From: Kiritimatiellia bacterium
GTDB lineage: Bacteria; Verrucomicrobiota; Kiritimatiellia; RFP12; JAAYLN01
DNA length: 37,746 nt
Assembly (NCBI GenBank): GCA_017458965.1
Contig: JAFSZJ010000001.1
Span: forward strand, 1-37,746
Reading direction: 5' to 3'
In this document: positions 4,527 through 37,140 of the stretch, piece after piece
How positions within the stretch are numbered: the first letter of the stretch is position 1
Layout: each line of letters starts with the position of its first letter
Program-made: the position numbers and the translations under genes
The notes under the pieces: generated by a model
Database searches by the model: none
What the model was told of the DNA's origin: nothing
Seen by the model: the letters and a program-made list of their open reading frames with translations, nothing else

Positions 4527-4670
4527 GGGTCTGGAAGGTCCTGAAGGTCTGGAAGGTCCGGAAAGTCTGGAAGGTCCTGAAGGTCTGTAAGGTCCGGAAA
4601 GTCTGGAAGGTCCGGGAAGTCTGGAAGGTCTAGAAAGGCTAGATGGTCTAGAAGCTCTAGAAAGACTAGC
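4527..4670. repeat. 9-bp tandem array (AGGTCYGGA), 16 units
   Basis: Sixteen consecutive 9-bp units remain exactly in phase over 144 bp. Early units are AGGTCTGGA, AGGTCCTGA and AGGTCCGGA; the last ones drift to AGGTCTAGA and TGGTCTAGA. The drift suggests expansion followed by decay. Both strands can be translated through it, producing only low-complexity peptides. It lies in the gap between the divergently transcribed epimerase and leuA genes. Confidence 0.8.
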
Positions 4671-4692
4671 CGCTCGCACTAACCACTAACCC

Positions 4693-4734
4693 CTCTCATC
4701 TCTCATCTCTCATCTTTCATCTCTCATCTTTCAT
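4693..4734. repeat. 7-bp tandem array (CTCTCAT / CTTTCAT)
   Basis: Six in-phase heptamers (CTCTCAT x3, CTTTCAT, CTCTCAT, CTTTCAT) form a pyrimidine-rich tract on the + strand, ending 7 bp before the palindromic element. Together with the 9-bp array it fills most of 4520-4741. Confidence 0.75.
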
Positions 4735-4900
4735 CTTCCCTCAGGCTTATCCCCCATAATTTGTCCGATGGGGACCACCCATGTCGGCCAAGGGCAGGTT
4801 TTATGCGGGCGAGGCAGCATTCGCTTGATTGTCCGGGATAGGGAAACTTTTTTGCTGCGGCATGCGCCGCGACGATGTTGGGAGATCTTTTGCGCTCGAT

Positions 4901-4978
4901 GGCGGAAGCGGGCTTCGTAAGGCGGGCCGGATTGTCGCGTTGCGACGCCCGCCTTCCGCAAGCCCTCTTCCCTCCGCC
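4901..4978. repeat. Long imperfect palindrome inside the candidate MITE (left)
   Basis: Nested pairing: GGCGGA (4901-4906) with TCCGCC (4973-4978), GGGCTT (4910-4915) with AAGCCC (4960-4965), AAGGCGGGC (4919-4927) with GCCCGCCTT (4947-4955), and GTCGC-GTT-GCGAC (4934-4946) at the tip. As RNA this would be a stable hairpin; as DNA a potential cruciform. Confidence 0.6.
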
Positions 4979-5016
4979 ACCTTCGCGTCCGCATAATGGG
5001 CGTTTTGTCATGTGAT

Positions 5017-5111
5017 GCGCGGCGACGCGGGGAGTTGTGTCCGTGCATTTTGTCGGCGCCGCGAAGCGGCAATCCGGCCGACGAAATGACGGACGCCCCG
5101 AGTCGCCGCGC
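5017..5111. repeat. Long near-perfect palindrome inside the candidate MITE (right)
   Basis: About 36 base pairs fold 95 nt on itself: GCGCGGCGAC (5017-5026) with GTCGCCGCGC (5102-5111), GGGG (5029-5032) with CCCC (5096-5099), GTCCGT (5039-5044) with ACGGAC (5089-5094), ATTTTGTCGGC (5047-5057) with GCCGACGAAAT (5077-5087, one G-U), and GCCGC-GAA-GCGGC (5058-5070) at the tip. A separate small hairpin GGTCGC-GAA-GCGACC follows at about 5134-5148. Confidence 0.7.
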
Positions 5112-5189
5112 TAGGAAATCGTCCATAATCGTCGGTCGCGAAGCGACCAGTAGGAAAAACTGGGGGATAAGCCTGTTCCCTCTCCCAAT

Positions 5190-5222: not shown

Positions 5223-5243
5223 ATGCATCAGGCTACAGGATGA
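5223..5243 (+). other. Six-codon ORF overlapping the leuA start
   Basis: ATG at 5223 encodes M-H-Q-A-T-G and then TGA; the TGA overlaps the leuA ATG (ATGA at 5240-5243). It contains no leucine codons, so it is not a classic attenuator peptide. It may promote reinitiation at leuA or may be chance. Confidence 0.25.
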
Positions 5244-6796
5244 ACGACACTGTAAGGATATTCGACACTACGCTCCGGGATGGTGAGCAGGCGCCGGGCT
5301 ATGCGATGGACCTCGACGAGAAGGTGCGCATGGCCCTCCAGCTGGAAGCCCTTGGAGTCGATGTGATGGAGGCGGGCTTCGCCGTTGCCTCCCCTGGCGA
5401 CTTCGCGTCCGTGAAGGCGATCGCGGATGCCGTCAGGTCGTCATCGGTCTGCTCGCTCGCACGCGCCGTGGAAAAGGACATAGACGCCTCGGCCGAGGCA
5501 ATAGCGTCCGCGGCGCGCCCGCTCATACACGTCTTTCTCGCCACGAGCGACCTGCACCTGAAGTACAAGCTCCGAATCAGCCGCGACGAATGCCTTGAAG
5601 CGATCCGGCGGGCGGTGGCCCATGCGCGCAATCGTTGCCCCGAGGTCGAGTTCTCGGCGGAGGACGCGACGCGGACCGATGTCGATTTCCTCTGCAAGGC
5701 CTACGAGACGGCCATAGCTGCCGGAGCGACGATAGTGAACGTCACGGACACCGTCGGCTACGCCACCACCGAGGAATATGGTGCGCTGGTTTCGTCGCTG
5801 ATGGCCCGCGTGAAGGGGATCGACCGCGTAATCGTCTCGACCCATTGCCATGACGACCTTGGACTGGCCGTGGCGAACTCGCTCGCCGGGGTCCGGGCGG
5901 GCGCACGGCAGGTAGAATGCACTGTCTGCGGCATAGGCGAACGCGCCGGCAACGCCGCGCTTGAGGAGGTCGTAATGGGCCTCGCGACCCGTGCGGACGC
6001 CTATGGCGGCCTAATGACGAACATCCGCACGCCGGAGATCGCTCGATCCGCCCATCTTCTCTCCACGATCACGGGCATACGCATCCCGCCCGGCAAGGCA
6101 ATAGTGGGGACGAACGCCTTCGCACATGAGAGCGGCATCCACCAGCAGGGCGTCCTGTCGAAGGCCGAGACCTACGAGATCATGGCCCCCGAATCGGTCG
6201 GGATGAAGAAGACAGAGCTCATCCTCGGCAAGCATTCGGGCCAGCACGCGCTTGAGAACCGCCTCCGCGACCTGGGCTACGACCTCGACAGCGCACAGGC
6301 GTCGGAGGTCTTCGAGGCGTTCAAGGCGCTGGCCGACCGCAAGAAGCGCATAACCGACCGCGACATCGTCGCGCTTGCGGAGTCGCGGGTCGCGTCGCAC
6401 GGGGCCGACGGCAAGGGCTGGAAGCTCGATTCGTTCGTCGTGAACAGCGGCAACCACATGAGCGCGACCGCGCAGATCAAGCTCGTCAAGGACGGCAAGT
6501 TCGCGCAGGAGGCGGCCATCGGATCCGGTCCGATCTACGCGGCGTTCCAGGCGATCGAGAAGATCATCCGCCACCGCTTCATCCTCGAGGACTATCGCAT
6601 AGAGGCCGTCACGGAGCAGCGCGACGCACTCGGCGAGGTGCTGGTCAAGATCTCCGACGCCGACGGCAAGGGGACCTACCGAGGCCGCGGCGTCTCTACG
6701 GACATCATCGAAGGCTCGATACTCGCGTTGCTGGTGGCCGTCAACAGGATGCTGGCCGCCGCTGCGCGGCGGGAGGCGAGTGGCGGTGTGGTATAA
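5240..6796 (+). CDS. leuA: 2-isopropylmalate synthase
   Basis: A 518-residue protein with the LeuA layout: a catalytic TIM barrel opening with [15 protein letters not shown], metal-binding [15 protein letters not shown], and the substrate loop [10 protein letters not shown] linker contains [15 protein letters not shown], and the C-terminal regulatory domain starts near residue 390 ([21 protein letters not shown]). It condenses acetyl-CoA with 2-oxoisovalerate, the first committed step to leucine; the intact regulatory domain implies leucine feedback inhibition. Length is normal for the long bacterial form. The start overlaps the stop of a six-codon ORF, and no other leucine genes are adjacent. 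Its own TAA stop lies inside a TATAAT box that probably serves the mcsB region. Confidence 0.93.
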
Positions 6797-37074: not shown

Positions 37075-37140
37075 ATAGGCTTATCCACCAGTTTTTCCTA
37101 ACTGGTCGCTCACCACCGACGATCATGGACGTTTTATGGG
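37075..37140. repeat. Diverged end copy of the 4.7-5.2 kb palindromic element
   Basis: AGGCTTATCCACC, AGTTTTTCCTA, CTGGTCGCT, ACCGACGAT and ATGGACG occur in the same order and spacing as in the reverse complement of 5116-5174. The following GTTTTATGGGCGAGGC resembles the inner part of the left end (4798-4817). No matching second end is seen before the window edge, so this is a solo end or an older, truncated copy. Confidence 0.55.

Follow-up and report, generated by a model that had tools for sequence, protein, structure and literature searches.

Within the 37,746-nucleotide stretch of Kiritimatiellia DNA analysed here (the window), positions 4742-5175, upstream of the leucine biosynthesis gene leuA, hold what we are highly confident is a miniature inverted-repeat transposable element (MITE), with ends that match those of an insertion sequence (IS) of the IS4 superfamily and with a separate structured repeat, likely cargo, as its core (Table 1). 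The two terminal inverted repeats (TIRs), CAGGCTTATCCCCCA and TGGGGGATAAGCCTG, are perfect over 15 bp and each is abutted on the outside by TTCCCT, so that the 434-bp element proposed in an earlier, sequence-only reading of the window was found exactly where it had been placed. When the window was shuffled 100 times with its dinucleotides preserved, perfect 15-bp inverted pairs spaced 60-3000 bp apart arose 29 times in total (about 0.3 per window), and not one of them (0/29) was directly bordered by a duplication of 5-6 bp. The unshuffled window contains exactly one such pair, and this pair carries the duplication.

The element matches 31 places in the window's own genome (G000), corresponding to about twenty or more copies, and further copies were found in G004, which represents another genus of the same family; its dispersed multicopy state in G000 was thereby confirmed. 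Since contigs of this metagenome-assembled genome (MAG; 122 contigs, 63% completeness) end inside copies, as assemblies do at repeats, the true copy number is uncertain, with several contigs stopping about 100-280 bp inside a copy and many at about 140 bp. Four copies run from end to end, namely the one in the window (contig C93) and those on C61 (91% identity), C40 (87%) and C92 (79%, right part), and no coding frame is conserved among these four, as the longest open stretch varies in both frame and length. Exact duplications of 5-6 bp were present at four intact G000 copies (TTCCCT, AAGGTA at C61, CTTGT at C40, and TCTTC), a copy in G004 (G004:C43) is flanked by TGATT, and the contig ends C7 and C45 share the flank AGGGA, as expected for one copy split in assembly. 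Independent copies with different duplications thus support TTCCCT as a target duplication. Allowing up to two mismatches, the TIR matched 28 times in G000, compared to 2 matches for a reversed-pattern control. Short tandem-like repeats, of GGTCTGGAAGGTCC-type and CTCTCATCTTTCATC-type units, occupy window positions 4527-4741 directly to the left of the element, and similar pyrimidine tracts adjoin some other copies.

A partner insertion sequence in related genomes

The ends of the MITE are common to a transposase-bearing IS in relatives, but not within the G000 MAG. In G004, 14 exact TIRs were identified, or 15 when one mismatch was allowed, and these include the ends of one multicopy IS (five left, four right), which are 98-100% identical. 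The longest left end continues into the open frame VDTIILKSDLGRTCDEFVEGLFAG, which is the start of a transposase following the left TIR, and two pairs of left and right ends are matched by flank duplications, ATTATA (6 bp) and CTGCG (5 bp). Both end types match a single locus in G002 with a decayed transposase; the decayed transposase at G002:C165 adjoins the same right end. Transposase fragments with CAGGCTTATCCCC ends occur in G022, and smaller pieces in G018 and G050, which belong to another family of the order. Across the order, the transposase was detected at E <= 1e-20 in 9 of 162 genomes, and a search among plasmids gave no match. A complete IS was recovered at G120:C105; it is 1,492 bp long with ends CACCCTTATCCCG/CGGGATAAGGGTG, encodes a 416-aa transposase, is flanked by the 7-bp duplication TGCACCG and has a left sub-terminal hairpin resembling one in G004. 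The earlier expectation of a transposase gene bounded by the same ends therefore held for the relatives, where such a gene adjoins them, but not for G000, where none was found.

The proteins of G025, G022 and G002 match DDE_Tnp_1 (PF01609) above cut-off, and the C1 region displays the full Y-(2)-R-(3)-E-(6)-K signature (YREK) in the transposases of G002, G022, G025, G066, G120 and G125. The IS4 superfamily includes IS4, IS1634, IS701 and ISH3, and full YREK pairs with duplications of about 10 bp, whereas groups with duplications of about 5 bp have an incomplete YREK (De Palmenaer et al., 2008, PMC2266710). The partner IS resembles the IS4 family in combining a DDE_Tnp_1 transposase with a complete YREK, but its duplications, 5 and 6 bp in G004 and 7 bp in the distant G120, are shorter than the approximately 10 bp (7-13 bp by subgroup) used to define that family. 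With IS1634 it shares duplications of 5-6 bp, but differs in having the full YREK and in its score with the NCBIfam IS1634 model, which is 27 bits where the cut-off is 100; no NCBIfam model reached its cut-off, those of IS4 and IS701 likewise remaining far below. The group of the partner IS thus fits neither published pairing, as it combines full YREK with duplications of 5-7 bp.

The element has the features of MITEs of bacterial insertion sequences, being short, multicopy, devoid of a conserved frame and bounded by target duplications and by perfect TIRs that a full IS has as well. It is, however, not a plain internal deletion of the IS described here, since the sequence that the two have in common is limited to about the terminal 15-20 bp. 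At G004:C53, C54 and C151 the 15-bp TIR begins other, unrelated internal sequences, and there may be more than one non-autonomous family using these ends in G004. In addition, nearly identical old element remnants were seen at G002:C99 and G050:C55, in genomes assigned to different families; this likeness may reflect either transfer or binning contamination. In G002, the left arm was seen as a remnant.

The embedded structured core

Unlike typical MITEs of bacterial insertion sequences, the element contains a core that is a covarying repeat of inverted modules and that also occurs separately. This embedded repeat had been missed by the sequence-only reading. The core, of about 300 bp, is an inverted pair of modules of about 107 nt with CGTC-tagged outer hairpins; this follows from a covariance model (R1) that was built from the left module and that, in almost all full cores, also recognises the right half, there on the opposite strand. 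At a threshold of E <= 0.01, R1 matched 29 times in G000 and 22 times in G004, and the remaining 93 genomes covered by the search had no match. The segment folds far better than its shuffles (z = -8.3), and for 29 of the 95 consensus pairs at least one of 11 aligned cores has both partners replaced, compared to a mean of 9.5 pairs in shuffles and 5-12 in slid structures. The outer hairpins are bordered on one side by a conserved ACTG/CAGT and on the other by CGACGAT/ATCGTCG, and their stems vary in sequence with pairing mostly kept (e.g., GGTCGCGAAGCGACC, GCTCGCGGAGCGAGC, GGTTGCGAAGCAACC), although some variants pair poorly. The strong pairing and the compensatory changes suggest that the core is maintained in its folded form, as a cruciform, as a single strand or as RNA. 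When known RNA families were considered, the sole match was a weak, full-length one to the Coxiella small RNA CbSR2 (window 4912-5128), which at 16 bits against a cut-off of 300 was rejected.

Table 1. Coordinates of the element, its parts and neighbouring features in the window
Feature	Position	Strand	Support or remark
Target duplication, left copy, TTCCCT	4736-4741	.	Sequence
Non-autonomous element (MITE), 434 bp; very probable	4742-5175	+	31 matching places in G000; also in G004 at 79% identity
Left TIR, CAGGCTTATCCCCCA	4742-4756	+	
Left arm of the MITE	4757-4849	+	Alignment: conserved in most G000 copies; diverged in G004 and G002 copies
Embedded structured core: inverted module pair closed by CGACGAT/ATCGTCG pairing, with end hairpins	4850-5155	.	
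Left end hairpin GCGGCATGCGCCGC (4857-4870) and CGACGAT side, CGTC tag on minus strand	4857-4876	-	
Module A	4884-4990	+	Covariance model R1, 120.7 bits
Module B, inverted copy of module A	5015-5119	-	Covariance model R1, 64.9 bits
Right end: CGTC tag (5130-5133), hairpin GGTCGCGAAGCGACC (5134-5148), tail AGT	5130-5151	+	
Right TIR, TGGGGGATAAGCCTG	5161-5175	-	
Target duplication, right copy, TTCCCT	5176-5181	.	Sequence
leuA, 2-isopropylmalate synthase, downstream neighbour outside the element	5240-6796	+	NF002086 and TIGR00973 above cut-off
Single, decayed right end of another member of the element family, TIR TAGGCTTATCCACCA (degraded)	37076-37136	-	Near the window's other end

Core copies without the TIR of the element occur in both G000 and G004, singly, in pairs and in tandem. 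Those in G004 include three close pairs on one contig and single-module variants, and at G004:C92:8692-10225 three inverted-module cores without TIR lie within 1.6 kb, of which two are neighbours separated by a similar linker. At a G000 core copy spanning the end of C106 and the start of C3, the outer flanks form an 11-bp perfect inverted repeat, CTAGTGGTTTG, in place of the usual TIR, and a near match to this repeat lies inside the C48 copy. We considered a second TIR type, CTAGTGGTTTGRCA, around the C106/C3 core, but with only three matches in G000 and one in G004 it was not established as an element end.

The occurrence of cores without TIRs, together with the abundance of Y1_Tnp genes in these genomes, could be taken to mean that the hairpin core itself moves the whole 434 bp as in systems of repetitive extragenic palindromes (REPs), with the appearance of TIRs and target duplications being secondary. 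We regard this as very improbable, given that the 15-bp TIR forms the exact end of the copies, with duplications of 5-6 bp next to it, and that the same TIR bounds a DDE transposase. Furthermore, Y1_Tnp genes, which are related to REP-associated tyrosine transposases (RAYTs), are numerous across G000 (2 matches), G001, G002 and G004 (15 matches), but none of the 30 loci examined was flanked by the module (best score 14.8 bits, E 0.4), and none had a convincing end hairpin. A RAYT link for the core was consequently rejected. The core does resemble REPINs with RAYT transposases in consisting of inverted hairpin pairs that are multicopy and extragenic, but it differs from them in flanking no examined Y1_Tnp gene.

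A likeness was also found to the CGTC-tagged REPs. These are hairpins bearing a short tail and a CGTC tag; they are mostly arranged as head-to-head dimers, sometimes with structured spacers, which apparently lack a dedicated transposase and which were not reported from the PVC (Planctomycetes-Verrucomicrobia-Chlamydiae) group (Di Nocera et al., 2013, PMC3733652). Like these, the core has a CGTC tag beside a hairpin, a 3-nt tail, an inward-facing, inverted dimer arrangement, a conserved structured spacer and no linked transposase. In contrast, its stems are about 5-7 bp of G/C rather than 8-9 bp starting with A/T, its tail is AGT rather than CCA, and its spacer of about 250 bp is far longer. 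Hence, the core works like a CGTC-tagged REP but falls outside the published definition.

Weight of the evidence, proposed mechanism and the leuA neighbourhood

Several observations qualify or weigh against reading the segment as a MITE mobilised through an IS4-superfamily transposase. The single TTCCCT duplication is weak when taken alone, given the repetitive, pyrimidine-rich nature of the left flank, which shows a chance match of 8 bp to the right flank of copy C92, a reservation that the sequence-only reading had itself raised with good reason. Among the copies, the one on C48 has both ends but no exact target duplication, and some others are incomplete or retain one of their ends in degraded form. 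In G000 itself, a 63% complete MAG with contigs breaking at repeats, the search for a transposase gave none, and in no case did an assembly span both ends of an intact IS with precisely the 15-bp ends of the MITE; the complete relative in G120 has diverged ends and a 7-bp duplication. Finally, covariation in palindromic DNA can in part be explained by template switching, and not only by selection on the fold.

The lack of a transposase in G000, along with the many G000 copies that are decayed or single-ended, would also be expected if the element spread as a MITE in the past and no active transposase remains in the species. We find such a relic state rather unlikely, as the MAG is incomplete, the contig-end copy C94 shows 99% identity over its 100 bp and others show 94-95%, and the ends of the related IS in G004 are, as described above, near-identical. 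The earlier view of the segment as a MITE-like, non-autonomous mobile element is supported by its many copies, by their duplications and by the transposase with the same ends in relatives.

The MITE and the IS share their ends, have matching duplication lengths and are both multicopy. Most likely, the DDE transposase of the full-size IS4-superfamily IS would recognise the ends of the MITE in trans, excise it and reinsert it with a staggered cut of 5-6 bp. Since the core repeat also occurs outside the element, it was most likely captured as cargo by an ancestral MITE, and would later have been amplified with it. On a more tentative note, the core may be a fold-dependent CGTC-tagged repeat without a transposase of its own that rides in MITEs of DDE transposons, and the carrier IS at the same time an undescribed family of the IS4 superfamily with complete YREK and half-turn duplications of 5-7 bp; we put forward this combined proposal as a possibility with somewhat less than even chances.

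The element ends 64 bp upstream of leuA, and this proximity, the strong fold and the compensatory changes in the core might suggest that the segment serves that gene as a structured leader RNA or in its regulation. However, none of the LeuA-family loci of twelve relatives (0/12) carries the element, and their homology to the window begins only within the gene, with no upstream sequence in common; nor do the genomes of the same family have any sequence upstream of leuA in common with the window. Moreover, the compensatory changes derive from copies at scattered, unrelated loci. Conservation upstream of leuA had been named in the sequence-only reading as the sign of a leader; with the element missing from all twelve loci, a leuA leader RNA was rejected, and we consider a leader or regulatory role as the origin of the segment exceedingly improbable. 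The suggestion that the insertion lies just before the leuA promoter was not borne out, as a consensus scan of the interval from the element to leuA revealed no site of sigma-70 type.

Our literature search on mobile elements of Kiritimatiellae found nothing relevant. In the window, the insertion of the MITE alters the upstream region of leuA. For the IS4 superfamily, the partner IS breaks the published rule by which the completeness of YREK goes with the length of the duplication (PMC2266710). In conclusion, the presence of a CGTC-type repeat within a MITE whose ends and target duplications are clear provides a concrete and testable route for the spread of such a repeat.
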